In this document: piece by piece, positions 129-33,300 of the stretch
Layout of the letters: every line of letters begins with the position of its first letter
How positions within the stretch are numbered: the first letter of the stretch is position 1
DNA from: Streptomyces sp. R44
Lineage (GTDB): Bacteria; Actinomycetota; Actinomycetes; Streptomycetales; Streptomycetaceae
Length of the DNA stretch: 64,000 nucleotides
Direction: 5' to 3'
NCBI RefSeq assembly: GCF_041053105.1
Contig: NZ_CP163444.1
Location: forward strand, 6,852,501-6,916,500
Program-made: the position numbers and the translations under genes
The notes under the pieces: generated by a model
Seen by the model: the letters and a program-made list of their open reading frames with translations, nothing else
Databases searched by the model: none
Told to the model about the DNA's origin: nothing

Positions 129-446
129 ATGTCGACGATCGGTCTGGCCGCGGCCATCGAGGAGTTGCGGCAGGAGCTGTACGAGGCGCAGAGGACCGGC
201 GCCGGCCAGCAGTTCGCCTTCGGCGTCGAGGAGGCGGAGCTGGAGCTCCTGCTCGAACTGCGCCAGTCCGCGAAGGGGGAAGGAAAGCTCTCCTTCGGTG
301 TCGTCACGGCCGGCGCGGGCGGCGAGCGGACCACCGTACGCACCCACAAGCTCAAGCTCCGGCTCTCCGTCGCAGACAAGGCCGCCGGCGGCACCCGACC
401 CGAGGTCAACGACGAGGAGACCGGGTCCTGGGACGACGAGGGCTGA
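129..446 (+). CDS. Trypco2-like (trypsin-co-occurring domain) small protein
   Basis: This 105-aa acidic protein starts with a short helix of the form I-G-L-A-A-A-I-E-E-L-R-x-E-L. A beta-rich core follows, in which F-G-V is repeated around residues 31 and 55, and the C-terminal tail is acidic. This pattern fits the trypsin-co-occurring domain (Trypco2) described in actinobacterial conflict systems, which sits beside or inside trypsin-domain genes. The next gene starts 1 nt after the stop and begins with a trypsin domain, which is the expected partner. ATG 129 is chosen because a G-rich Shine-Dalgarno run lies at 112-118. The biochemical role is unknown; it is thought to act as an adaptor or effector-associated module. 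The family assignment is by recognition only. Confidence 0.7.
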   Translation: MSTIGLAAAIEELRQELYEAQRTGAGQQFAFGVEEAELELLLELRQSAKGEGKLSFGVVTAGAGGERTTVRTHKLKLRLSVADKAAGGTRPEVNDEETGSWDDEG

Positions 447-447
447 C

Positions 448-2610
448 GTGGATCCGGCCAGGCTGGCACTGATCCGCAGCGGTACCAAGGACGAGACCCG
501 AAGCACCGGATCCGGCTATCTGATCGGCCCCCGCCTCGTGCTGACCGCCCGTCACGTCCTGGTGAACCGGGAGACCGGTGAGCTGTGGCCGAGGATCTCG
601 GCGCGTATCGGCCACTTCGAGAACGGCCCGTCGCACACCGTCAGGGCCGAGCTGCTGTGGACCCCCGCGGACGACCTCGACGTCGCACTGCTCCGTGTCG
701 ACCACGCCACGGACACGCCCGGCGTCGTCTGGGGCCGGCCCGCCGGCCGGGTGCCACTGCCGTACCAGGGCCTCGGCTACCCGAAGGCCGCCGCCGCCGA
801 CCGGCGCGAGGCCGAATACCTGCGGGGCACGCTCGCGCCGCTCTCCGGCTCCGGCCGGCACTACGTGCTCGACCAGGGGCCCGCTCCCGTTCCCGGCACG
901 GACGGCGGGAACGCCTGGGGCGGGGCGTCCGGCGCCGCGGTCTTCTGCGGCGACGTGCTCGTCGGCGTCGTCGTCCAGGAACCCGCGGCCTACGGCGCCA
1001 GGAGGCTGCTCGCCGTCCCCGCGCACTCCTTCGTCCAGGACCGCGACTTCCTCGACCACCTCGCCCGGCACGCGTGCGCCTCCCCCGAACTGGTCACGAT
1101 CGGGGTGCCCGCGCCGCGCGCCGCACCCGGTACCGAGCGCACGCCCACCGAACGCACCCTGGAGAAGCTGCTCCTCCCGCTCTTCACCGACCCGGCCGCC
1201 CGCACCGCCTACGCGCGCGAACTGGCCGGCGAACTCGGCTACGACACGGACGACTACGCCCCCACCACCGCCGACCTCGTGGCGCTCCTCCAGGCCCACC
1301 CCCGCGCCCATGCCGCACTCGGTCAGGCCCTCGCCCCGCGCGTCGCCGACCCGGCGTTCCGCTCCCGCCTCACCGCCTTCCTCACCCAGGCACGGGCCCT
1401 CGGCTGCGGGCCCCTGCTCTCGCCCGCCGAGTTCGACGAACTCCTCCAGCTCCTCGCCGAGATCCGCCGCGAACAGCCCGCCCTGCTGCACCTGGCCGCC
1501 CACGACGCACTGCCGTACGCCGTGCTGCCCGACGGCCTCGCCCGCCCCCGGATCGAGGAGGACGAGCTCGGCCCCACGATCGAGGCACTGGAGGAACTGC
1601 CCGACGGGGAGCGCGTCCCCGACGGCAGCCCGCCCGTCCCCGCCCTGCTCCGCCTCGTGGAGTACGTGGGAGCCTCCGTCGACGGCGAACGACAGCACCG
1701 GCTGCGCGCCTGGTCGCAGCAGACGGCCGACCGCATCGGCATCCACGTCGACGCCCTCAGGGAGCGGCGCGGGGACGCCGCCCAGTGGGCGAAGCGACGC
1801 CGGAACTCGCTCGTCTCACGCGTGGTCATGGAACTGGAGCACAGCGGCACCGCGGACGGCGACCGGTACCGGTGCCGCATCCGGCTCGACCGCGCCGACG
1901 GCACCCGACGGATCCTCAAGGACCCCTCGTCGGAGCCCAAGACACCGCAGCAGGCCGCCCGCGCCCTCGCCGAGGCGGTCAGCGCCGCACGGCAGGAGCC
2001 CGGCCAGGGCGACCACGTGCCCTGGGTGACCGTCGTCGTCGACCGGCACGGCCTCCACCTGGCCGTCGACGAATGGGAGCCCGGCGCACCCGAGGACCTC
2101 CTCCCCTCCTGGCCCATCGGAGCGGACTACCAGGTCTCCTTCAGCTGCCCGGAGTTCGACCGGATCGCCGCCGACCGGGCCCAGGACCAGGAACGACGCT
2201 GGAAGAAGGGCCGGACCGCGGTCCTCGTCACCGGCCCGGCCTGCGGCGACTCCAGGAAGCTGATGCACCTGCTCCGCACCGAGCACCGCGACACCGCCCG
2301 GGCCGTCCTCCACGGCCCCGCCGACCAGCGCCAGTCGTGGCTCCAGGTCTGCCTCGCCCTCGGCGTCCCGGTCGTGCTGTGGGACCGCGACGCCACCGGC
2401 TACGAGGACGCCGAGCGGCTCGGCGAGCTGGCGCCGGCCGGCGAGCTCGACGGACTCGCCGAGCGGGTACGCGTCTTCCGCAGCCACACCGCCGCCCACC
2501 CCGAGGAACGCCGGGCGCGCCCCTCACTCGTCTGGGAACCCGACAGCTCCCACCCGAGGACCGAGCAGCTCCACCTGAGGGACCCCTGGAGAGGAACCCA
2601 CGCGTCATGA
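448..2610 (+). CDS. trypsin-like protease fused to VMAP-like region, conflict-system core protein
   Basis: 720 aa from GTG 448, just after the TGA of the preceding gene. Residues 1-190 form a chymotrypsin-fold protease with a full triad: H36 (T-A-R-H-V-L), D78 (D-L-D-V-A-L-L) and S161 (G-A-S-G-A-A). There is no signal peptide, so the protease is cytoplasmic. Residues about 220-340 are helical and may hold an effector-associated domain. Residues about 400-720 resemble the vWA-MoxR-associated protein (VMAP) middle and C-terminal regions, with a P-V-V-L-W-D-R segment and a late R-D-P-W motif. In such systems the VMAP protein couples a MoxR ATPase and a vWA protein to an effector, here the protease. 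Its stop overlaps the start of the MoxR gene as ATGA, so translation is coupled. The triad is clear; the VMAP boundaries are inferred. Confidence 0.8.
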   Translation: MDPARLALIRSGTKDETRSTGSGYLIGPRLVLTARHVLVNRETGELWPRISARIGHFENGPSHTVRAELLWTPADDLDVALLRVDHATDTPGVVWGRPAGRVPLPYQGLGYPKAAAADRREAEYLRGTLAPLSGSGRHYVLDQGPAPVPGTDGGNAWGGASGAAVFCGDVLVGVVVQEPAAYGARRLLAVPAHSFVQDRDFLDHLARHACASPELVTIGVPAPRAAPGTERTPTERTLEKLLLPLFTDPAARTAYARELAGELGYDTDDYAPTTADLVALLQAHPRAHAALGQALAPRVADPAFRSRLTAFLTQARALGCGPLLSPAEFDELLQLLAEIRREQPALLHLAAHDALPYAVLPDGLARPRIEEDELGPTIEALEELPDGERVPDGSPPVPALLRLVEYVGASVDGERQHRLRAWSQQTADRIGIHVDALRERRGDAAQWAKRRRNSLVSRVVMELEHSGTADGDRYRCRIRLDRADGTRRILKDPSSEPKTPQQAARALAEAVSAARQEPGQGDHVPWVTVVVDRHGLHLAVDEWEPGAPEDLLPSWPIGADYQVSFSCPEFDRIAADRAQDQERRWKKGRTAVLVTGPACGDSRKLMHLLRTEHRDTARAVLHGPADQRQSWLQVCLALGVPVVLWDRDATGYEDAERLGELAPAGELDGLAERVRVFRSHTAAHPEERRARPSLVWEPDSSHPRTEQLHLRDPWRGTHAS

Positions 2611-3596
2611 CCACCTCACAGCAGCCGGCCGCCACGAGCACCGAAGGAGACGGCTGGCACCTCTTCCACGGAGACGGCGAGCGCCGCGACGTCGTCTTCC
2701 CCGAAGCACCCCCGTGGCGCCGCTTCGGCCGACCGGAGTCCAGCACCGGCGACAAGGTCCCCCACCCCCGCCCGTACCTCATCGGCCCCGACGAGGTCGA
2801 AGTGGTCAACGCCGCCCTGCACCTGCGCCGGCCCCTCCTCGTCACCGGGCAGCCCGGCACCGGCAAGTCCTCCCTCGCCCACGCCATCGCCCACGAACTC
2901 AGGCTCGGCCGCGTCCTGCAATGGCCGGTGAACAGCCGCTCCACCCTGCAGGACGCCCTCTACCAGTACGACGCCGTCGGCAGGCTCCGCGAGGCGACCC
3001 TGCCGCGCGATGCCGACGGCACGGAACCCGACATCGGCCAGTACATCCAGCTCGGCCCCCTCGGCAACGCCCTCGCACACCGGGAAGGCCCGCGGGTCCT
3101 CCTCGTCGACGAACTCGACAAGGGCGACGTCGACCTCCCCAACGACCTGCTGACCGTCTTCGAGGAGGGCGAGTTCGTCATCCCCGAGCTCGCCCGGCTG
3201 CCCAGGAACCACGCCCCCGTCCACGTACAGACCGACGACCCCGACAGGCCCACCCCCGTCGAGCGCGGCCACATCCGCTGTGCCGAGTTCCCCGTCGTCG
3301 TCATCACCAGCAACGGCGAACGCGAGTTCCCGGCCGCCTTCCTGCGCCGCTGCATCCGCCTCGACCTCCCCGAACCCGACGAGCAGCGGCTGCGGGACAT
3401 CGTCGCCGCCCACCTCGGGGACACGGCCCTCGCGGAGGTGGACGACCTCCTGGAGACCTTCCTCGAACGCCGTGCCGCCGGCGAGCTCGCCACCGACCAG
3501 CTCCTCAACGCAGTCTTCCTCCGCAAGGGCGGCGTGAACCTCGAAGCGGGCGCCCTGCTCCAGGCCGTCCTGCACCGGCTCGGCGGAGCCCTGTGA
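2607..3596 (+). CDS. MoxR-family AAA+ ATPase
   Basis: 329 aa, with its ATG overlapping the upstream stop (ATGA). Walker A is at residues 81-89 (G-Q-P-G-T-G-K-S-S). Walker B reads V-L-L-V-D-E-L-D-K, sensor 1 is in V-I-T-S-N-G-E-R-E-F, and a double-Arg finger follows in F-L-R-R-C-I-R-L. This is the MoxR arrangement, in which the ATPase works with a vWA-domain partner as a chaperone-like remodeller. Here it lies between a protease-VMAP gene and a vWA-like gene, giving the three-part set described for vWA-MoxR-VMAP conflict systems. ATP hydrolysis probably licenses or resets protease activation. All catalytic motifs look intact. Confidence 0.9.
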   Translation: MTTSQQPAATSTEGDGWHLFHGDGERRDVVFPEAPPWRRFGRPESSTGDKVPHPRPYLIGPDEVEVVNAALHLRRPLLVTGQPGTGKSSLAHAIAHELRLGRVLQWPVNSRSTLQDALYQYDAVGRLREATLPRDADGTEPDIGQYIQLGPLGNALAHREGPRVLLVDELDKGDVDLPNDLLTVFEEGEFVIPELARLPRNHAPVHVQTDDPDRPTPVERGHIRCAEFPVVVITSNGEREFPAAFLRRCIRLDLPEPDEQRLRDIVAAHLGDTALAEVDDLLETFLERRAAGELATDQLLNAVFLRKGGVNLEAGALLQAVLHRLGGAL

Positions 3597-3600
3597 CGCC

Positions 3601-6600
3601 GTGATCACCCGCGTGACGAAACTCCTGGCCGAGAGCGGGGCCGACCTGTCCCGGGAAGAGCTCCTCGACGCCCTGTGGCTGGCCGAGAAGCTGCCACGGG
3701 GCGCCGGGCCCCTGGCACGAGCCGTGGCGCGGAGCGAGGCGTCCCGCCGCGACGGGGCCTCGGCGCCGCGGCCGCCCGGGACGCCGGACAACCCGGACCC
3801 GGAGCCCCCGTCCGCCGATCCGCACCGGCCGCCCGCCGCACACCCGCTGCTGGCAGCCGCGGCGGGGGACCGGTCCGCAGGGGACGGAACCGTGGTCCTG
3901 ACCCCGGCCCACCCCGTCGGCGTCCCCGACCGCCACTCCCTCGGCCCCGGCCGGCTCCAGCTGGAGAAATCCCTGCGGCCGCTCCGACAGCGCTTCCCCG
4001 ACCGCCGCCGCCATGTCCTCGACGTCCCGCGCACCGTCACCGCCATGGCCGAGACGGGGGTGCCCGAGACCGTCACCCGCCCGCTGCGCACCCGCTGGCT
4101 CACCCTCGCCATCGTCGTCGACGACGACGTCTCCATGGTCCTGTGGCAGCGCCTCGCGGCGGACGTCCGCGCCCTGATGGAACGCGCCGGATCGTTCCGT
4201 GACGTCCGGGTCCACGGCCTCGACACCCGCGGCGGCACCCCGACCCTGCGGAGCAGCCCGTACCGCCACCGCACCCGCCCCGAGTCGGTGAAGTCCCTGT
4301 GCGACCCGACGGGGAACACCCTCGTCCTGGTCGTCAGCGACGGCGTGGGCGAGGCCTGGCGGGACGGCGGGATGCGGCGGGTCATGGAGCGGTGGGCCCG
4401 GTCCGGACCCACCGCGATCATGCACGCCCTGCCGACCCGGCTGTGGGCGAGCACGGGGATCACGGCGCGGCCCTGGCAGGTCACCACGACCGGCCGCGGC
4501 GGCCCCACGCGGGCCTGGCACGTCACCGACCCCGACCTGCCGCCGGAACTCGTCCGCTTCGACTCCGTCCCCGTCCCGGTCCTCGAACCGACGCCGGCGG
4601 CCGTCGGCGACTGGGCCCGGCTCGTCGCCGCGCCGGGCGGCACGGCGCTCCTGCCGCTGTGGGACGCGGACCGGACCGACCCCCGACCGGCCGCCGCCGC
4701 CCCGGGGCGACCCGACAGCGTGGGCGTCGAGGCGGTCCTCCGCTTCAAGGAGGCCGCGTCCCCCGAGGCATACCGGCTCGCGGCCCACGTGGCGGCGGTG
4801 GCCCCCGTCACGCCCCCGGTCATGCGCCTGGTCCAGGCCGCCGTCGGCGCCCCTACGGACCCGGGACACCTGACGGAGGTGTTCCTGGGCGGCCTGATGC
4901 ACGAGGTCGACGCCACGGCCGTGCCGGACCGCCTGCCCCACCTCCGCCGCTACGACTTCGACCCGGAGGCGCGCCGAGCCCTCCTGAGCGCGGTCCCGCC
5001 GAAGGAACTCCTGCACACCGCCGAGTCCGTCACCCGCCGCATCGAATCCGCCATCGGCCGGGCCTCGGTCTTCCCCGCCTGGGTCGGCCACCCGGACGGC
5101 GTGGCGGTCGTCGAGGACACGGGACGGTCGTTCGGCTGGATCCGCACGCAGGTGCTGACGCGGCTGGGGATCCCGCCCGCGGCGGAGGACGATCCGGAGG
5201 TGCCCGGGGCACGGAACCTCGACGCCCCGCCCACCGACACCCCGGTCGCCTCCCAGGAGCTGCCCGAGCCTTTCTCCCCGGAGGAGGTCCTCGCGGCACG
5301 TGAGCGGCTTCTGGGCCCGGAGCACCCGGAGACCCTGGCCGCCCGTGCCGACCTCGGCTCCTTCCTCAGACAGGCGGGCCGGATCGTCGAGGCGATCGCG
5401 CTGCAGGAGCGGGTGGTCGACGAATGTGAGCGCGTCCTGGGCCCGGACCATCCCGACACCCTCACCGCGCGCGCGGCGCTCGGCTACTCGTTCTACGAGA
5501 TGGGGCGGACCGACGAGGCCATCGCCCTGGAGGAGCAGGTCGTCGTCGATCGTGAGCGGGTGCTGGGCCCGGATGATCCCGGCACCCTCACCGCCCGCTC
5601 CGACCTCGCCTTCTCCTACGGCCGGGCCGGGCGGACCGGCGAGGCCACGGCGCTGCAGGAGCGGGTGGTCGCCGATCGTGAGCGGGTCCTGGGCCCGGAG
5701 CATCCCGACACCCTGGATGCCCGTTCCAACCTGGCGTTCTCCTTGAGGCAGGCGGGGCGGCTCGGTGAGGCCATCGCCCTGGAGGAGCAGGTCATCTCCG
5801 ACTCCGAGCGGCTCCTGGGTCCCGAGCATCCCGACACCCTGGATGCCCGTTCCAACCTGGCGTTCTCCTTCAAGCAGGCGGGGCGGACCGACGAGGCCAT
5901 CGCCCTGCAGGAGCACGTCCTCGCCGTCTCCGAGCGGGTGCTGGGAACCGAGCACATCGACACCCTCGCCGCCCGCGCCGACCTCGCCTTCTCCTTCAGA
6001 CAAGCCGGGCGGATCGAGGAGGCCATCGCTCTGGACGAGCAGGTCGTCGCCGTCTCCGAGCGGATTCTGGGCCCGGAGCATCCCGACACCTTGGACGCCC
6101 GTTCCAACCTCGCGTTCTCCTACAGCCAGGCAGGGCGGACCGGTCACGCCATCCTGCTGCAGGAGCGGGTGGTCGCCGACAGCGTGCGGGCCCTGGGCGC
6201 GGACCATCCCGACACCCTCACCGCGCGTGCCGCCCTCGCCGTCTCCTTCAGGGAGGCGGGGCGGATCGACGAGGCCATCGCTCTGCAGGAGCGGGTGGTC
6301 GACGACTGTGAGCGGGTTCTGGGCCCCGACCATCCCGACACCCTCACCGTGCGTGCCGCCCTCGCCTACTCCCTCTACGAGATGGGGCGGATCGACGAGG
6401 CCATCGTCCTGGAGGAGCAGGTCCTCGCCGCCCGTGAGCGGGTCCTGGGCCCGGGCCATCCCGTCACCCTCGTCGCCCGCTCGAACCTCGCCGTCACCTA
6501 CCGGCAGGCGGGCCGGATCGACGAGGCCATCGTGCTGCAGGAACAGGTCCTCGCGGATCGAGAGCGGGTCCTGGGAGCGGAGCACCCTGACACGATGACC

Positions 6601-6789
6601 TCCCGCTCGAACCTCGCGTTCTGCTTCCGGCAGGCGGGCCGGAAGATCGAGGCCATCGCCCTGCAGGAGCGGGTTCTCGCGGATCGAGAGCGGGTTCTGG
6701 GTCCGAAGCACCCCAGCACCCTGAGCGCCCGCGTCACCCTCGCGTCCTTCCACGGCCCCACGGCGCCGACCGGCGAGACGCCGTCCTGA
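3601..6789 (+). CDS. SAV_2336-type N-terminal / vWA-like protein with kinesin-light-chain-like TPR array
   Basis: 1062 aa from GTG 3601, 4 nt after the MoxR stop. Residues 1-60 resemble the SAV_2336 N-terminal region of Streptomyces proteins, and a Pro-rich linker follows. Residues about 168-300 look like a von Willebrand A fold: strand L-A-I-V-V-D-D-D-V-S-M ends in a degenerate MIDAS (D-x-S-x-V instead of D-x-S-x-S), and a later S-D-G motif is at 246-248. Residues 571-1032 are 11 copies of a 42-residue TPR (L-G-P-x-H-P-D-T-L ... A-G-R-x-x-E-A-I), with a degenerate twelfth. The vWA part should pair with the MoxR ATPase, and the TPR array is probably the ligand-sensing or scaffold part. A nucleotide-binding NB-ARC/STAND domain, often found with such TPRs, is not visible. 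Confidence 0.8.
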   Translation: MITRVTKLLAESGADLSREELLDALWLAEKLPRGAGPLARAVARSEASRRDGASAPRPPGTPDNPDPEPPSADPHRPPAAHPLLAAAAGDRSAGDGTVVLTPAHPVGVPDRHSLGPGRLQLEKSLRPLRQRFPDRRRHVLDVPRTVTAMAETGVPETVTRPLRTRWLTLAIVVDDDVSMVLWQRLAADVRALMERAGSFRDVRVHGLDTRGGTPTLRSSPYRHRTRPESVKSLCDPTGNTLVLVVSDGVGEAWRDGGMRRVMERWARSGPTAIMHALPTRLWASTGITARPWQVTTTGRGGPTRAWHVTDPDLPPELVRFDSVPVPVLEPTPAAVGDWARLVAAPGGTALLPLWDADRTDPRPAAAAPGRPDSVGVEAVLRFKEAASPEAYRLAAHVAAVAPVTPPVMRLVQAAVGAPTDPGHLTEVFLGGLMHEVDATAVPDRLPHLRRYDFDPEARRALLSAVPPKELLHTAESVTRRIESAIGRASVFPAWVGHPDGVAVVEDTGRSFGWIRTQVLTRLGIPPAAEDDPEVPGARNLDAPPTDTPVASQELPEPFSPEEVLAARERLLGPEHPETLAARADLGSFLRQAGRIVEAIALQERVVDECERVLGPDHPDTLTARAALGYSFYEMGRTDEAIALEEQVVVDRERVLGPDDPGTLTARSDLAFSYGRAGRTGEATALQERVVADRERVLGPEHPDTLDARSNLAFSLRQAGRLGEAIALEEQVISDSERLLGPEHPDTLDARSNLAFSFKQAGRTDEAIALQEHVLAVSERVLGTEHIDTLAARADLAFSFRQAGRIEEAIALDEQVVAVSERILGPEHPDTLDARSNLAFSYSQAGRTGHAILLQERVVADSVRALGADHPDTLTARAALAVSFREAGRIDEAIALQERVVDDCERVLGPDHPDTLTVRAALAYSLYEMGRIDEAIVLEEQVLAARERVLGPGHPVTLVARSNLAVTYRQAGRIDEAIVLQEQVLADRERVLGAEHPDTMTSRSNLAFCFRQAGRKIEAIALQERVLADRERVLGPKHPSTLSARVTLASFHGPTAPTGETPS
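5311..6696 (+). repeat. 11 x 126-bp in-frame tandem repeat encoding TPRs
   Basis: Eleven complete 126-nt units (42 codons each) lie end to end, and a decayed twelfth begins at 6697. Several units share long identical stretches at the DNA level, for example around 5700-5760 and 5821-5880. This points to recent duplication or gene conversion, not old divergence. The units code for kinesin-light-chain-like TPRs in the vWA protein. Confidence 0.9.
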
Positions 6790-11731: not shown

Positions 11732-13171
11732 GTGCGGGTAACGATTGGTGTGCCAGCCTGGAGGGTGGTGGGCAGTCCTCCCGCCTGTCGGGGAGGTGGC
11801 GCACCGCCGCAGGAGCCTGTGAAGTTGGGTGGGGCGGTCTTCAGTGTGGCGACTTGTCGCCAGGAGGGTCGTTGCTGTCGGTGGCCCGCATTATGGTGGC
11901 GCGTGAGGGGGTGGGTCGGGGTGATTCGTGCGTACAAGTTCCTGATGCGGCCCACCGTGGGCCAGGCGGCAGCGCTCGGCGAGATGCTGCGTGATCACTG
12001 CTCCCTCTATAACGGCGCTTTGCAGGAGCGCCGGGACGCCTACCGGCACGCCTCCAAATCCTCGATCACGTATGGGAAGCAGTCCGCGCAGCTCAGAGAC
12101 ATCCGGTCCTTCGACCCGGAGCGGCAGGGCCGGTGGTCGTTCTCCAGTCAGCAGGCCACCTTGCGCCGCCTGGACAAGGCATTTCAGGCGTTCTTCCGGC
12201 GCGCCAAGGCCGGTGAGGCGCCGGGGTACCCCAGGTTCCGGGGCGTGATGTGGTTTGACACCGTGGACTTCCCCAGGGACGGGGATGGCTGCCGCTGGGA
12301 CTCCACCCCGCATGACCCCGTCACCCGCGTCCGTCTCCAGGGCGTCGGGCACGTCAAGGTGCACCAGCACCGGCCGGTGGTCGGCAGGGTCAAGACTGTG
12401 TCGGTCAAGCGCGAAGGCCGACGCTGGTACGTCATCCTGACCGCCGAGCAGGCACAGTCCGAGCCGCTTCCGGCGACGGGCGGTGTGGTCGGCATCGACC
12501 TGGGTATAGCCACCTTCCTCGCCGACTCCGACGGTGGGTTCGTGCCCAACCCGCGCCACGGGCGGAGGGCTGCCGCGAAGCTCGGGGTCGCGCAGCAGGC
12601 TCTCGCCCGCTTCCCTCGCGTCCGCCGGGACAAGCGCACCAGGAACCACCGGCGGGCCGTGCAGAAGGTTGCCGGCCTGCACCGCAAGGTCCGCCGCCAG
12701 CGCCTCGACCATGCGCACAAGACTGCGCTTGACCTCGTGCGCCGGCACGACGTCATCGCGCACGAGGACCTCAAGATCCGCAACATGGTCAAGGCCCCGG
12801 CGCCCAAGCCGGATCCCGGACGGCCGGGCAGCTTCCTGTCCAACGGGGCCGCGGCGAAGGCCGGACTCAATCACTCGATCTCGGATGCCGGATGGGGGGT
12901 GTTCTTGACGATCCTGCACGCCAAGGCTGAAAGCGCCGGACGGGAAGTGATCGCCGTGGACCCCCGCAATACCTCCCGGACCTGCCCGGAATGCGGGCAC
13001 GTCGCCAAGGAGAACCGGCCCACCCAGGAGAAGTTCCACTGCGTCTCGTGCGGTCACACTGCGCACGCGGACACGGTGGGCGCTCTGAACGTTCTACGGG
13101 CCGGGCTGGTCCGTCGCAACACCCCACAGGGTTAGCGAGAAGCTCCCGGCTTCAGCCGGGGGAGGAGTCAC
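11732..13171 (+). mobile_element. IS200/IS605-type solo TnpB element (IS1341-like), approximate ends
   Basis: The element contains tnpB only; no Y1 transposase TnpA is present. The proposed left end follows a TTAC at 11728-11731, and a hairpin sits at 11777-11796 (CCTCCCG, loop CCTGT, CGGGGAGG). The proposed right end follows the hairpin at 13143-13164 and the tetranucleotide TCAC at 13168-13171. These features match IS605-family architecture (tetranucleotide-specific insertion, subterminal hairpins, no target duplication). The right end is better supported than the left. Confidence 0.6.
11921..13135 (+). CDS. tnpB: TnpB RNA-guided endonuclease
   Basis: 404 aa from GTG 11921, with GAGGGGGT 9 nt upstream. 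The N-terminal helix-turn-helix/OrfB region (Y-K-F-L-M-R-P-T) precedes a split RuvC nuclease with all three acidic residues: D193 in G-I-D-L-G, E282 in H-E-D-L-K and D384 in H-A-D. The zinc ribbon (C-P-E-C-G-H ... C-V-S-C-G-H) lies between the second and third. TnpB cuts double-stranded DNA guided by an omega-RNA from the element's right end, and helps the element persist after excision. No frameshift or truncation is visible, so it is probably active. A GTG at 11903 is an alternative start. Confidence 0.92.
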   Translation: MIRAYKFLMRPTVGQAAALGEMLRDHCSLYNGALQERRDAYRHASKSSITYGKQSAQLRDIRSFDPERQGRWSFSSQQATLRRLDKAFQAFFRRAKAGEAPGYPRFRGVMWFDTVDFPRDGDGCRWDSTPHDPVTRVRLQGVGHVKVHQHRPVVGRVKTVSVKREGRRWYVILTAEQAQSEPLPATGGVVGIDLGIATFLADSDGGFVPNPRHGRRAAAKLGVAQQALARFPRVRRDKRTRNHRRAVQKVAGLHRKVRRQRLDHAHKTALDLVRRHDVIAHEDLKIRNMVKAPAPKPDPGRPGSFLSNGAAAKAGLNHSISDAGWGVFLTILHAKAESAGREVIAVDPRNTSRTCPECGHVAKENRPTQEKFHCVSCGHTAHADTVGALNVLRAGLVRRNTPQG

Positions 13172-26017: not shown

Positions 26018-26542
26018 CTAGGGCAGGAACTCGTAGGACGGTCCGTCGGGCGCGCGGTCACGCGCGCACAGCGTCACGTCCCTCCCCTTGAGATAGGCGA
26101 GCAGCCACTCGCCGAACGTCATCTCGTAGAGAGTCCACGAAGGGCTGTCCATCTCCTGGACCAGGACCCGCCACGGCGACGAGGGTTCTTCGGGAACACG
26201 GAGGAAGATCATCTCCCCCGTCGTGGCCGTCGCCACCGGCAGCAGTTCACCGGGACTCGTCCCCGCCGGATCCGGCAGGAACTCGGCCATGTCCTCCTCG
26301 CGCCAGAACTCGAGGTCCTGCCGCATCATCGTGCCCAGATCGTGCAGAAGATGACTGGCGGGGTGCTTCAGATACAACTGCCCGTTGATCGTGATCGAAC
26401 CGTAGGCATCCACGATCTCGTGGAAGTCCGCGGGGAATTCCACGCCGAGTTCCCGCTCCAGCGCGGTCCACGGAGCCGGGTCCGACCAGTTGAACCGGGG
26501 TTCGCCCAACAGGGCCTGTATTTCCGAGAGCGTTGCCACCAC
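26018..26542 (-). CDS. SMI1/KNR4 (SUKH) immunity protein
   Basis: 174 aa from GTG 26542, with AGAAGGGG about 8 nt upstream. The SUKH signature is present: W-x-x-L-E-R-E-L-G-V-E-F-P-A-D-F-H-E-I-V-D-A-Y-G-S near residue 27, and later G-E-W-L-L-A-Y-L. The gene lies 10 nt downstream of the Rhs toxin gene on the same strand, the classic toxin-then-immunity order. It should bind and neutralise the nuclease tip of that toxin. SUKH proteins very often pair with nuclease toxins, which agrees with the toxin domain seen here. Confidence 0.88.
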   Translation of the reverse strand: MVATLSEIQALLGEPRFNWSDPAPWTALERELGVEFPADFHEIVDAYGSITINGQLYLKHPASHLLHDLGTMMRQDLEFWREEDMAEFLPDPAGTSPGELLPVATATTGEMIFLRVPEEPSSPWRVLVQEMDSPSWTLYEMTFGEWLLAYLKGRDVTLCARDRAPDGPSYEFLP

Positions 26543-26552
26543 TGGGCCCCTT

Positions 26553-27341
26553 CTAGCAGGTCGAGCCGATGCCGGAACTGGAGTTGATCGCCGTGCACGA
26601 ATACTGCTCCACGATGTCCCCGGAGGGGCCGTACGCGGTCATTCCCACCTGGACGAGCGTGGGGACGGCCGAATGCGGGTCACCGTAGATGGGCACGACC
26701 GACATGAACAGCTTGTTGTCGCCGGTCAGATGCTTCCAGCCGAAGGATTCCACCTTGCTGGCCATCCGGGCATTCGCCCTGCCGTGCAGTGCGACCAGAT
26801 TGCGGACATCCTGGCCGGTGCCCTTGCCCCAGTAACCTATCAGGTGGCCTGCCTGCGGATTTCCGCCGCCGGCCGCGATTTCACCCATGCCGTCCGGCTG
26901 GACGGAAGGCTCGCATTCCGGGCACTTCGGCAGGCCGCCCGCACCGGTGCGCGACCTGCGGTCGGCCTTGGTGAGGAACGCCCAGGCACCGGTCGCCCGG
27001 CAGCCCTTGTTGCCCTGGTGGTCGGTGTACTCCTCCAGACCGCCGTACACCCGTCCGCCGTCGATCAGCGGCATCGGGTCGCACGTCGGGTTGTTGGTGT
27101 CCGTGGTCCGCGGCGCGGGCCGGGGCTGGGGGCCCGGCGACGGCTGCGGGGTGGGACCCGGTCGCGGCTCGTTGTCCGACGACGAGTCGTCGTCGGAGTC
27201 GACGTCCGGCGACGGCATCAGCATGCTGCCGAGGGCCGTCCCCGCGTCCGCCAGGTTCTGCTGCCCCTGCGGCGTCGCCGCGTACAGGGCGGTGACGAGT
27301 GCCGCCCCCGCCCAGTAGATGGCCGGGATCGCGAAGAGGAA
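26553..27341 (-). other. C-terminal toxin tip: DNA/RNA non-specific endonuclease-like domain
   Basis: This part encodes the last 262 residues of the Rhs protein. It begins right after the core's L-D-G-H with a hydrophobic helix (A-I-Y-W-A-G-A-A-L-V-T). A Pro-rich linker and a C-P-E-C pair follow. Then comes A-G-H-L-I-G-Y (H2783 as the likely general base), followed by R-N-L-V-A-L-H and N-A-R-M, the layout of the DNA/RNA non-specific endonuclease superfamily. Four scattered Cys may form disulfides or bind metal. Confidence 0.75.
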
Positions 27342-30300
27342 GTGGCCGTCCAGCTCGACGAGGCTGGTGGGGTTGCCGCCGCCGAAGGCGTACCGGTTGT
27401 TGGTGTACGGGTCCGCGCCGAGCTTCATGTCGGCGAGGGCGCCGTTGTACATGTCCCGGGTGGTGAAGCGGTTGAGGCCCGGGTTGTAGTCGCGGAAGCC
27501 CATGTCGTACGTGCCGGACTGGGCGTCCCAGCGCTTGGCGTTGTACCGGTAGGGGTTGTACTCCTCCTTGTCCGGCTGACCGGCCTCGGGCTTGTCGATG
27601 CCGGTGAACTCGGCGGCGTCGTTGTTGCCGTAGGCGGTGTAGCCGTAGGTGGCCTTGGTGTCGCCGTTCTTGTCGGTCAGCGTCTCGACGTCGGTGTGGC
27701 TGTTGTAGCCGTAGTAGCCGTCCTCGGTCGTGCCGTCCGTGTTGTGCTTCGTCTGCGAGAGACGCTCGCCCCACGGGCTGTACTGGAACGACTTCGTCAG
27801 CGCGCCGGCGACCTTCTCGTCGAGGACCTCACCGGACAGGCCGAGGTACTCGAAGTCGGTCGTCTTGCCGTCCGCCGTCTTCGTCGCGGTGCGGTCCAGC
27901 GGGTCGAAGGTGTACGTCGTCGACTTCATCGCGCCGCCGGCGTCCAGCTTCTGGGACTCCACGACGTGGTCGAAGCCGTCGTACACGCTCCGCTCGATGA
28001 CCTTGCCGCCGGAGCTGACCGACTGCTGGCGGCCGAAGGGGTCGTAGGTGTAGCTCGCCCCCACGCCCGCGGTCGACGTGCTCAGCAGCCTGTTCCGGTC
28101 GTACTGGAACGTGGTGGTCGCGCCCTTGACGGTCTGGCTGATGACGTTGGCGTTGTCGTCGTGGACGTACGTCTCCGTCGCGGCGCCGTTGCCCGTCTTC
28201 ACCGACTTGGCGAGCCGGTCGGCCGGGTCGTAGGTGAGGTCCGTCGTGGAGTCGAGGTACGCCGAGCGGTTGTCGGCGTTCATCTTCTTCGCGACGTCCT
28301 GCGACTTGTTGCCGTTGGCGTCGTACGTGTACGTGTGGGAGGCGACGAGCGTGGTGCCGTCCGCCTTCTTCTCCGTCGTCGACTTCAGCGCCGCGTCGAG
28401 GTAGTAGGTGTAGTCGACCGTGTTGCCGTTGTCCTTGGTCTCCTTCAGCTTCTGGCCGCGGTCGGTGTACGTGTACGAGGTGACCTTCGGGTCGCTGTCG
28501 GTCGCGGACTTGCCGACGGACACCGACTTGACCTTCTCGCGCAGGTCGTAGGTGTACTTGGAGAACTGGCTCGGGTGGCTGACCGTCTCCGACTGGCCGT
28601 TGGCGTCGTACGTGTACGACGTCGCCTTCTTCTCCACGCCCGCCAGCGACTCCGCCACCTTCTGGACCTGGTTGAGGCCCGTGTAGGTGATGGCGTAGGC
28701 GTCGACCTTCGTCCCCGGCGAGGTGTCGCCGATCGTCGTCAGGTTGCCGTTGACGTCGTAGGAGTAGGTGAAGGTCCGCTTCTCGTTGTCGGTCTCCGTG
28801 GCGTTGTCACGGACCAGCTTGACGCCGTCCGCGACCACGATGCCGCCGCTGTTCTGGTCCAGCTTCAGCGTGGTGGCGTCGGCCTGCTTGAGGGCGTAGG
28901 TGCCGAGGCTGACCCAGGTGCCGGTGCCCGCGTTCTGGTCCTTGGTGACCGCCGGTTCGGTGGTCGTGCCGTGGGTGAGCGTGTACTTGGCGGTCGTGGC
29001 GGCCCCGGTCACCTTCGGGTACTTCACGTACGCCGTGTACGTGCCGTCCTTCGGGATGTCGAGGGACCACGTGAAGGCGTCCGTGCCCGCGCCGGCCGCG
29101 TGGGTGCGGTGGTCGTAGCCCTGCTGCCCGGTGATGTTCCCGGTGGCCCAGGTGCCCGTGGCGGTGGTCGACTGGGTGTCGGAGTTGTCCAGCAGGACGA
29201 CCGACTTGCCCACCGGAACACCGTCGTCGGAACGGGACTTGACCTTGCCGTCCGGGTAGAACGACCACGTCATCGTGCGGTTGGACGAGCCGCCCGCCGA
29301 CGTCAGCGTCCTGGCCGTCTGCTGGCCCAGGGCGTTGTAGTCGTAGGTGGTGGAGATGTCCCACGGGTCCGTGGAGCTCTTCGTCCAGCCGTTGTCGAAG
29401 TAGTCGACCTTCGCGACGTTGCGGACCGTCTGCCCCTCCGAGGGCGGCATCGAGGTCTTCGACACCCGGCCGACGGCGTCGTACTCGGTCTCGGTGTAGA
29501 CGTTCGGGTTGTTGTAGCGGGCGTCCGCCGGATCGTACGGCTGGTAGCGGCGCTTCGGCCGGTTCAGCGCGTCGTACTCGGTACGGGAGGTGAACGCCGT
29601 GGTCGTGCCCGCCTCGACGGCGCGCGGGGTGATCACCTTGGTGGTGTTGCCGACCTGGTCGTACTCGTACCGGGTCGTGCGGTAGACGATCGGCGAGGTG
29701 CCGCTGCGCGGGACCTTGACCTCGGTCTGCCTGCCGCGCTCGTCGTAGCTGACGAGCGTCGTGTTGTTCTCGGCGTCCGTCGTCGAGACGACCAGGTTGT
29801 CCTTGTCGTAGGCCTTCCTGGTGATCTTGCCGGCGGCGTCCGTGACCGAGGTGGCCCGGTGGTTCAGGTCGTACGCGGACAGGCTGGTGTAGTCGGCCGT
29901 GTCGGCGGTGTTGTTCTTCTTCGGGTCGACGACCTTGACCGTGTTGCCGACGTTGTCGTACTCGTAGCTGACCTTCTCGCCGTTCGCGTTGACGACGGAG
30001 GTGAGCTGGTAGATCTCGTTGTAGTAGTTGGTCGTGACGAAGTCCGTCGCGTCCGCGGTGGTCAGCGTGCCCTTCGGCTCGGTCGTCGTCCTGAGGTTGC
30101 CGACCTTGTCGTAGGTGTACGTCGTCTTCCGCTCGTCCGACGTCGGCGTGTACTTCGGCGCGGTCGCCGAGGTGATCTGGTCCGCCGCGTCGTACACCGC
30201 GGTGGAGACCGCGCCGTTCGGCGCCGTCGACGTGGTGACGTTGTCGTTGGCGTCGTACACGGGGGCCGGAGCGGTGATCAGGTCACCGGCGGCCTGGTCC

Positions 30301-33300
30301 TTGGGCTCGGTCTTGACCAGCGGACGGCCGTACACGTCGTACGTCTGCGTGGTCTTCTTGCCCAGCGCGTCGGTGACCTGGGTGACCTGACCGCGCTCGT
30401 CGTAGACGAACGTCGACGCGTTGTTCAGCGCGTCCGTCATCGTCGTCGGGAAGCCCGTGGGCCCGAAGCCGCTGTTCGTGTCCGCGTTGCCGTTGGCGTC
30501 GACGGCCCGGATCAGCTGGCCGTACGCGTCGTACTCGTACGACGTGGTGTAGTCACCCGCCGTGGCGGTGGCGACGCCCTTGGGGTCGGTGACCGTCTTC
30601 AGGTTGCCGAAGGTGTCGTAGCCGAACTGCCACTTCCGGCCCTCCGGGGAGGTCTTCGTGAAGATGTCGGCCGAGTAGCCGTCGGCACGCGTCTGGTACG
30701 CGTACCGGGTGGAGTTCGCCGGGTACGTGCCCGGAGCGCACTCGCTCTGGGTCGGGACGCCCGCCTTGTTGTTCTCCGCGTCGCGCTTCCAGAGCGGGTA
30801 GCCCGTCTTCTGGTCGTAGCAGAACGCGGTCTTGGCGCCGTTGCTCTCCTCGGTGTACGTGACGTTGTTGTCCGCGTCCCACGACAGCTTCATCGACTGC
30901 GACTTGGCGTTCGTCGACTGGACGGCGCGGCCGAAGTCGTCGGTCACGTAGTCGGAGGAACGGGACTCGGCGTCGGTGACCTTGGTGGCCGTGAACTTGG
31001 GATTGCCCGAGTCCACCGCGTACGTGAAGCCCGTGGTGCCCTGGAGACGGTCGGTGATCGTCTTGGTCCACCAGTGGTACTTCGGGTCGTCTCCGGTCTG
31101 CGGGTAGTTGTACGCCAGCTGCGTGGTGTTGCCGCGCGGGTCGGTGGAGGCGACGAGCTTGACGTTCTTGTTGCCCTGGGTGGCGTCGTACGCGAAGCCG
31201 AAGACCTTCGGCTGGGTCGAGCCCGCACCGTCGGTGATCTTGGTGAGCAGGCCCTTGTCGGAGTACTCGAAGGTGACCTTGCGGCCCGAGATGTCGGTCA
31301 TCGACTTGATGTGGTCGATGATCTTCGGGTTGTTGCTGTCGGCCTTGGAGTAGTACTCGATGGTCAGCGACTGCCGGCCGACGGGGTCGGTGACGTACTT
31401 GAGGAACTTGGTCGGCTTGTTGTTGGACTTCCGTTCCTCGTAGGTGTACGTCTGGGTGTTGCCGTTCTTCTCGATGGCCGACGTCATGTAGCCGTCGCAG
31501 CCGAACACGAACCGCGTGCCGTCGGGACGGGTCATCGTCCAGGCGTCGGGGACCGGGTCCTTCAGCGGGGTGCAGTCAAGACCGGGCTTGGCGGCCAGCT
31601 TGTAGTGCACACCGGCCGGGGCCTTCCAGGAGCTCGTGGCCGAGTCCCAGCGGAAGACGTGCGTGGTGCCGTCACCGTCGGGAAGACGGATCTCGGTCGG
31701 GTTCGGCTTGGGGTGGAACTCCAGCGGCGCACCCAGCCGGATCGGGCCCGAGGCCTGGAAGGACCAGCCGTAGCCGGAGACCGTGTCCGAGGTGTCCTGG
31801 CTGTTGTACGCGAACCGGGCGAAGGTGGTGACACCGCGGCCGGGGTTGGTGAACGCGTTGTACTGCCAGACGGTGTTGCCCGACGCCAGGTTGTTCATCA
31901 GCGTCGAACCGGCACCGGTGTTCTTGCCCGTGTAGACGTAGAACTTCTCCATACCGAGCTGGTTGGAGGTGGGGTCCTCGACCGCGACGTTCTGGGTGAG
32001 GCCGGGGATGCCGGAGGTGCCGGAGGTCCAGGTGCCGGTCGTCTTGTTGTAGACGTCCCAGGTCAGGACGTAGTCCGTGCGCTTGTTGCCGTTGTCCGAG
32101 TTGATCGGGGTCTTGATCTGCGCCTGCAGGCTGACCGAGCCGCCCGGGGCGACGTTCGACGGCAGCGCCGTCTGGACCTGGTTGCCGCCGGTGGTGACGT
32201 CGCTGCCGTCGGGCAGGGCCCACTTGTAGGTCAGGACGTTGTCCGCCGAGGTCCAGGTGGACGCGGTCGTGTTGGTGAGGTTGAAGTCGACCGTGTAGTC
32301 GCTGTTCGGCGTCATACGCGCCGGGGTCTGCGGCGCGTAGTACGTCGAGTCCGTGGTGGAGTCGATGTACGTGACCACGATCCGGGGCGCGAGCCGCGGC
32401 TCGGTGCCCTCGGACGACAGGAACAGGGTGCGCTCCTGGGAGGCGGCCTCGTCGGCCATCTTCAGGACGACGCCCTTCTGGGAGGCCGGGGTGGTCACCC
32501 AGGACTGGGCGAGGGAGGTGACGTTCCAGTCGTGACGGGCGGGGTCGTTGGTCATGGCCCCGGTGTCGGCGGTGACGGCGCCGAAGTCGCCGCCCGCGGT
32601 CGTCCAGTTCGTCGCCGCGTCGGCCTTGGCCCAGGTGGCGGTGGCCTCGTCGAAGTCACGCGTCAGCGGGCGCAGCTCGTAGAGGGCGCCGGTGGTGTCC
32701 TGGGCGGTCTGGGTGGACCACAGGCGCACGTTGGCGTCCAGGACCCGGGCGGTGGTGGGGATGCCCAGGGCCGGGAACTTCAGCAGTGCGCGGGTGTCGC
32801 CGTAGGTGGCGGAGTTGTTGCCGACGGACAGCCAGTTCTTCGGGCCGGAGTCGTCGATGGTGTCGTGCGCGAGGGTGGACTGCGTCGAGGACAGGGTGGT
32901 GTCCTGCGAAGCGGCGTACACCTTCGTCGTGCGGCCGGCCTTCGGCAGACGCACCAGCTGGGTGGGCGCGGCGACGACCTGTCCGTCCTTCGTCTTGACC
33001 GCGACCATGTAGTAGTAGGCGCGGCCGTAGGGGTCGGGGTCGTCGGCCTTCGTCGGCGTCGCGGAGGTGTCGGTGTACGACGTGGTTCCGGGCGTGACGG
33101 GTGCCACGAGGGTGGCGGCCGAGGGGGTGAAGGTCTGGCTGACCGAGCGGTGGACCTGGTACTCGACGATGTCGTCGCCGGTTGCGACGGGGTCCTTGTC
33201 CTGGTACGCGGACCAGTTCAGCTCGGCACCGGTGTCGTGGATGGTGGTCGGGGCGGCAAGGTCGACGCCCTGACGGCCGAAGGTGAGGACGAGACGGGGG

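Follow-up and report, generated by a model that had tools for sequence, protein, structure and literature searches.

A putative VMAP-type vWA-MoxR ternary operon of Streptomyces sp. R44 and the pairing of Trypco proteins with trypsin subfamilies

The 64,000-nucleotide stretch of Streptomyces sp. R44 analysed here (the window, on contig NZ_CP163444.1) contains, at 129-6789 on the forward strand, a four-gene operon of 6.7 kb that, judging from its domains and gene order, almost certainly belongs to the VMAP-type vWA-MoxR ternary conflict systems. Its genes encode a Trypco2 protein, a trypsin-VMAP fusion, a MoxR ATPase and a SAV_2336/vWA protein with 12 TPRs, as identified with Pfam and NCBIfam and, for the trypsin, with a predicted structure. 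An earlier note, made from the sequence alone, had described this complete set of four tightly coupled genes as a class predicted by comparative genomics. All four open reading frames (ORFs) were confirmed where that note had placed them (Table 1), and both the VMAP-type class and the pairing of Trypco proteins with trypsins were indeed described by Kaur et al. (2020, PMC7159879; this and the other papers cited by PMC number are drawn on for the excerpts available). What is added here to the known, predicted class is a pairing rule, in which the choice of Trypco protein tracks the trypsin subfamily and not the VMAP chassis, the occurrence of trypsin-Trypco2 pairs on different chassis, and suggestive signs of turnover in the TPR array. 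The rule apparently goes beyond what the excerpts of Kaur et al. describe.

The order VMAP, MoxR, vWA (5' to 3') is that of the VMAP-type ternary class, and the synteny is conserved in relatives, where the genes stay linked. The GTG start of the trypsin-VMAP gene lies 1 nt past the Trypco2 stop, and the MoxR start overlaps the trypsin-VMAP end as ATGA. A hidden Markov model search bore out the VMAP assignment of the earlier note: the C-terminal end of the fusion matches VMAP-C (PF20028) at 94.8 bits, well over the cut-off of 27, and the middle region, which is helical in the predicted structure, matches VMAP-M0 (PF19916) at 21.5 bits, under the cut-off of 25.9. The MoxR protein has a clean Walker A motif (GQPGTGKS), a Walker B motif (LLVDELD) and the N-terminal motifs WHLFHG and PPWRRF; these match WxhapG and PsWRxa, which are reported from no MoxR proteins beyond VMAP systems (Kaur et al., PMC7159879). 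A match to the MadB family ATPases (NF047784) was rejected at 64.2 bits, with a cut-off of 475. In the vWA protein, the metal-site aspartates D170 and D243 (P0125 numbering; the choice of these two is our own reading of the paper) are present in 120 of the 120 aligned rows, the operon's included. The N-terminal motif [D/E]xxx[D/E]xxxa is found as E15xxxD19, with the aromatic residue W22 one position nearer than published. Within the MIDAS-like motif, the operon's protein alone has an Asp (4126-4128) where 118 of the 120 rows have Gly, a possible metal site.

The catalytic triad of the trypsin (His36, Asp78 and Ser161) was recognised as intact in the earlier note. Of 91 trypsin-VMAP proteins, 88 retain it, among them the operon's own; of the three exceptions, two have no N-terminal sequence and one is divergent. 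We distinguish two classes of trypsins by our own definition, starting from two query proteins and later using profiles: class A, which is the operon's subfamily, and class B. The triad is intact in 31 of 32 class A trypsin domains, and in all 11 of those outside VMAP proteins. As it is kept across relatives, proteolysis has probably been selected for. For class B, an alignment to the operon's trypsin placed the Ser in the wrong column and was replaced by motif inspection, which found SG[GAST] in 44 of 46 trypsins (none in L157 and L159; the instance in L105 is unconvincing). The predicted fold of the operon's trypsin is HtrA/DegS-like, no signal peptide was seen by eye on the fusion, and its profile gave only weak plasminogen matches among PDB sequences (best E 0.0049).

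Next, we focused on which small protein accompanies which trypsin. The operon's 105-aa Trypco2 protein, the gene of which adjoins that of the trypsin, matches PF19631 at 87 bits and is the sole Trypco2 match in the genome. Synteny was compared in 78 loci from the best 80 of 126 confirmed stretches, with patterns taken from an alignment of 37 trypsin-VMAP homologues; a Trypco gene was counted anywhere within the fetched locus, and adjacency was measured for Trypco2 only. A VMAP gene is present in 67 of the 78 loci, 21 with a class A and 46 with a class B trypsin. Trypco2 accompanies the class A trypsin in 21/21 loci with VMAP and in 10/11 loci without it. All 46 class B loci contain Trypco1, and none has a Trypco2 match over 40 bits (in L109, one elsewhere in the locus reaches 26 bits). 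The same pattern appeared from the Trypco side, in 30 loci for each family (the top match in each of the highest-ranking genomes, fetched with flanks of about 1.5 kb; 'none' may thus be a miss): Trypco2 was found with class A in 22, with none in 7 and with class B in one (L248, on the other strand), and Trypco1 with class B in 18, with none in 12 and with class A in 0. The idea that VMAP loci without Trypco2 have no trypsin proved wrong: Trypsin_2 was over its cut-off in 8/8 of those checked, and the upstream small protein was Trypco1 in 3/3 scanned. Beside trypsins, according to Kaur et al. (2020, PMC7159879), Trypco1 and Trypco2 are mutually exclusive; our counts tie the choice to the trypsin subfamily. 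The rule predicts that Trypco2 would act on class A trypsins and Trypco1 on class B trypsins, with no crossing.

The chassis of class A trypsins is not confined to VMAP. Streptomyces trypsin-NACHT and trypsin-NB-ARC proteins have a trypsin of the same subfamily with an intact triad, usually with Trypco2 just upstream, but differ from the operon's fusion in their NLR-like chassis; VMAP was not found in those 11 loci. NTPase matches were obtained for five of the six non-VMAP class A proteins scanned (NACHT in L133 and L135, AAA_16 in L140, NB-ARC in L155 and L162; L132 showed the trypsin only). Among these six, only the NB-ARC of L155 is over the cut-off; several trypsin proteins also have NACHT listed in their precomputed Pfam annotation. 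In a quick tree of 115 trypsin domains, the Trypco label takes three changes (the least possible is 2, the shuffled mean 39.1) and the chassis label four; the Trypco labels of the 78-locus rows were set from the trypsin class, in agreement with what the pairing counts had shown, and the chassis label covers only the 78-locus rows, the operon and L004. The branches are long, 50 of 112 inner branches have strong support, and a long branch places the genome's other, Trypco1-linked trypsin beside the Trypco2 side; the tree therefore shows clustering only. That trypsin belongs to a second VMAP system of the same genome (L004, 6269-17968, at about 5.738-5.750 Mb), which likewise has a trypsin-VMAP, a MoxR and a SAV_2336 protein but differs from the operon in having Trypco1 instead of Trypco2 and in the long, uncertain tree branch of its trypsin. 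It continues with an HExxH-type FxsB-like gene (by eye), followed by a TIR-NB-ARC-TPR gene.

In the 31 loci with a class A trypsin and Trypco2, the two genes are separated by 1 nt in 23 (16 VMAP, 7 other), overlap in five (as TGATG by our own reading; the script gave starts at -4 and -1), lie 4-5 nt apart in two and are on opposite strands in L155. In many loci a purine-rich GAGGAG ahead of the trypsin start falls within the last Trypco2 codons, and this position may explain why the acidic tail of Trypco2 is conserved. The fold of Trypco2 could not be taken from its AlphaFold2 model, which was rejected as too poor (predicted local distance difference test score 50.3), and a search against the PDB gave chance-like matches only (T-cell receptor alpha chains, best E 0.072). 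A distant kinship of Trypco1 and Trypco2 was unsupported (hhalign probability 0.3 of 100).

The vWA protein of the operon ends in a long TPR array. Streptomyces orthologues of the operon's trypsin-VMAP, for example in NPDC059534, LMG1-1-1.1 and S. wedmorensis NRRL 3426, are 78-83% identical to it, and three vWA orthologues (P0126-P0128) share the long array but differ in unit number and order. In most of the other relatives listed, TPRs are few and a kinase-like region is often present. In the four long-array proteins, the vWA-N modules are 73-83% identical, and the arrays have 11 (plus one short), 16, 12 and 11 full in-phase units (12, 14, 9 and 9 by a stricter motif). No conserved unit order was seen: all six array pairs align no better than shuffled ones, with 99 to 719 of 1000 shuffles as good. 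The power of this test was 0.96 at a unit identity of 0.74, 0.60 at 0.68 and 0.16 at 0.65 (25 simulations each); as it falls below about 74% identity, strong divergence without reshuffling is also compatible with the result, and turnover of the array is suggestive only. The most variable unit positions are 12, 15, 16, 19, 22 and 23, plus 27 and 36. In our own alignment, the first six correspond to TPR-motif positions 2, 5, 6, 9, 12 and 13, which are used in peptide binding (PMC1261162). Their mean entropy is 2.17 against 1.01 (50 units; 2 of 20000 permutations), a contrast that is descriptive, as the groove positions were picked after inspecting the data. The protein also matches NF040586 (FxSxx_TPR, an 'equivalog') at 415.9 bits, over the cut-off of 300. 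Because the best stretch of this match lies in the repeats (residues 759-1050), the vWA-TPR protein could be misnamed in public annotation. TPR-only vWA proteins have been linked to FxSxx loci (PMC7159879); no FxSxx precursor, processing or TIR/NB-ARC-TPR genes were recognised by eye in the 14 kb upstream and across the window, and no profile search was aimed at them.

We listed 120 of 1001 matches to the vWA-N module and counted their C-terminal domains by hand from the precomputed Pfam column; a class A trypsin-VMAP neighbour is not assumed for each. TPRs occur in 84 (four of them, the operon's protein and the three relatives nearest to it, P0125-P0128, were identified as having long arrays; the remaining 80 were counted from the Pfam column only), a receiver domain in 9, a kinase only in 4 and nothing listed in 5, with single cases of caspase with WD40, TIR, N6-methyltransferase, HAD, BTAD and kinase-FtsK. 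A NaeI-type restriction endonuclease plus kinase is attached to the SAV_2336 module in 12 of those listed (P0129, P0130, P0133 and nine others), possibly a nuclease-armed version of the same system. Among eight vWA proteins from class A loci scanned with Pfam, L097 has a receiver domain and six have TPRs; kinase-like (L086, L091, L096, L100) and NB-ARC (L107) matches were all below cut-off. Pfam and NCBIfam scans found no catalytic family in the C-terminal part of the operon's vWA protein, which leaves the trypsin as the only recognised effector-like enzyme at the locus.

The operon resembles the systems of Kaur et al. in its gene order, VMAP-C, MoxR N-terminal motifs, SAV_2336/vWA module, active-looking VMAP trypsin, Trypco2 neighbour and variable vWA C-terminus; it differs in its 12-unit TPR array and in that no FxSxx peptide system was seen adjoining by eye. 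We tentatively favour, as somewhat short of probable, a reading in which sensing falls to the vWA/TPR protein, licensing to MoxR and the effector role to a trypsin restrained by Trypco2; to the parts described above this adds, by inference, the direction of signalling, the restraint, the ligand, the substrate and the defence purpose. The trypsin would be kept off, or aimed, by the co-translated Trypco2 and the VMAP chassis. An invader-derived or stress-derived ligand would be bound by the TPR array, and the vWA module and the MoxR ATPase would convert this binding, using ATP, into a rearrangement of the complex. The freed trypsin would then cleave one or a few cytoplasmic proteins, and the resulting growth arrest or cell death would stop the infection. 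A vWA sensor with a VMAP peptidase as effector has been proposed before (PNAS 2024, PMC10907252), and a vWA tail without a recognised catalytic domain favours that model. The widely kept triad, the pairing of Trypco2 with class A trypsins on different chassis, the close spacing of their genes and the variable groove positions of the TPR units are further points in favour of our reading. CARF-linked vWA-MoxR-VMAP loci near type III CRISPR (PMC10910872) also speak for it and, as an analogy only, so does LypABC, where a trypsin-like peptidase is essential for host lysis (PMC13236601). LypABC shares with the operon a trypsin-like peptidase in a multi-protein lysis or defence switch, which was experimentally tested for LypABC, but it has a CARD-NLR chassis, and no MoxR, vWA, VMAP or Trypco is named in the excerpts of that paper.

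Several observations weigh against this reading. Where the vWA-N modules of relatives are 53-69% identical, their C-terminal slots hold enzymes (kinase plus NaeI-type nuclease, TIR, caspase, N6-methyltransferase), a better fit for effectors than for sensors. TPRs commonly show high groove variability (PMC1261162), and it would point to binding capacity, not to immunity; overall, the ratio of non-synonymous to synonymous changes (pN/pS) among the 11 units of the operon's array is 0.63, and no positive selection is shown. Kinase-like C-termini also outpace their N-termini (0.62 vs 0.76; 10 chosen proteins compared in 45 pairs), which leaves the TPR arrays, at 0.52-0.59 vs 0.73-0.83, just somewhat ahead. 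The co-divergence of Trypco2 with the trypsin is no stronger than that with MoxR (r 0.61 and 0.64), although this mirror-tree of 19 loci, with L085 and L090 left out and some pieces short, is uninformative. The placement of the genome's Trypco1-linked trypsin by the Trypco2 side of the tree belongs here too. By eye, the surroundings are ordinary-looking genes with no recognised defence island, and PADLOC gave weak and partial matches only.

The enzymes in the slot favour the opposite direction of signalling, in which, as proposed by Kaur et al. (PMC7159879), VMAP senses, MoxR-vWA switches and the trypsin cuts the vWA protein to release its tail; here, the freed TPR array would be an adaptor or effector. 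The nucleases, TIR or caspase that relatives have in this slot speak for the proposal, as does the unconserved linker between the vWA and C-terminal modules. We consider this possible but rather unlikely for the operon, where cleavage would free TPRs and no recognised catalytic domain. A trypsin-specific cleavage site between the modules was looked for and none was seen: class A and class B loci share the boundary, a conserved RLGxP near residue 521, and the linker past it offers no class A-specific motif. As the locus is compact, with an apparently active protease and an intact-looking Walker A motif, it would lend itself to a direct test of the two opposed models (protease effector or vWA-tail releaser). 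No bench experiments on this widespread class were found in the literature searched, nor any biochemical work on a trypsin-armed version, in agreement with the earlier note.

The purpose of the system may also lie outside defence. A regulated proteolysis or cell-death module serving the producer's own development or stress response would suit a class strongly associated with multicellular bacteria (694 of 716 organisms; PMC7159879), the housekeeping-like neighbours, the frequency of close MoxR relatives in the genus (295/392 genomes at E 1e-60) and the role of LypABC in gene-transfer-agent release (PMC13236601). We hold it to be distinctly unlikely, as the varied C-terminal modules look like conflict and not development, and the subtype is patchy, with trypsin-VMAP relatives in 29/150 genomes at E 1e-20 (one-domain matches counted, own genome included). 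In addition, a genome of the same genus (G015) has the same flanks (MMPL 84%; pcaDC 95% over the 196 residues compared) enclosing about 11.6 kb of other genes. In S. wedmorensis, the operon lies about 4.6 kb from a ROK gene, with other genes between, and this gene is 98% identical to the ROK gene about 4.2 kb upstream of the operon here. The cassette thus occupies a variable site. The least probable account, which we judge very unlikely, is a RavA-ViaA-like MoxR-vWA chaperone that matures a cellular complex, with the trypsin as quality control and no conflict role. MoxR-vWA pairs studied elsewhere do assemble complexes (PMC7159879) and the predicted trypsin fold is HtrA/DegS-like, but for such pairs the excerpts of that paper name neither VMAP-C nor Trypco2 nor a hypervariable vWA tail, and the occurrence of the operon among genomes is variable.

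Returning to the reading with the trypsin as effector, a broader but rather unlikely proposal is that Trypco2 and the class A trypsin form a portable two-gene peptidase-restraint cassette (toxin plus keeper), passed between chassis of the VMAP/MoxR and NLR-like types. Here, the sensor of the chassis would be a TPR array, the units of which are shuffled and replaced so fast that orthologues with 73-83% identical vWA modules share no order. Receptor diversity would then arise by repeat recombination, in addition to the reverse-transcriptase route of other VMAP systems.

Table 1. Features of the operon, with positions in the window.
Feature	Position	Strand	Details or evidence
Trypco2 protein	129..446	+	105 aa; PF19631 87 bits
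Trypsin-VMAP fusion	448..2610	+	720 aa; GTG start
Trypsin-fold peptidase domain	448..1074	+	residues 1-209
Catalytic His36	553..555	+	homologue alignment
Catalytic Asp78	679..681	+	homologue alignment
Catalytic Ser161 (GASGA motif)	928..930	+	homologue alignment
All-helical middle region, VMAP-M0-like	1420..1767	+	PF19916 below cut-off; helices in predicted structure
VMAP-C domain	1861..2538	+	PF20028 94.8 bits
MoxR AAA+ ATPase	2607..3596	+	329 aa
vWA (SAV_2336) protein with TPR array	3601..6789	+	1062 aa; alternative start 3613
SAV_2336 N-terminal/vWA module	3652..5061	+	NF041121 370.7 bits, residues 18-487
MIDAS-like motif DDDVSM (relatives mostly DDGxSM)	4120..4137	+	alignment of relatives
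Unconserved linker past conserved RLGxP boundary	5176..5304	+	alignment of relatives
TPR array, 11 full 42-residue units and a shortened last	5305..6786	+	Pfam and unit phase

The operon lies at 6.85 Mb in a single-contig genome of 8.89 Mb. Upstream are a divergent MMPL transporter gene and housekeeping-like genes, and downstream is a pcaDC fusion gene (all named by eye); a promoter and terminator scan upstream of the operon found nothing. A match to AVAST type 1 (Avs1b) was rejected, as it reached 21.3 bits with a cut-off of 1500 and covered the protease region only. Elsewhere in the window, an OrfB/IS605-type TnpB with a Cas12f1-like TNB domain is encoded at 11732-13135 on the forward strand; no partner transposase was recognised by eye among the adjoining genes. 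On the reverse strand, at 26018-35192 and in a lower-GC stretch, a gene encodes a protein of 2879 aa that has RHS repeats as well as a golvesin C-terminal-type domain. It adjoins a SUKH/SMI1-KNR4 protein, and the two resemble a polymorphic toxin and its immunity gene.

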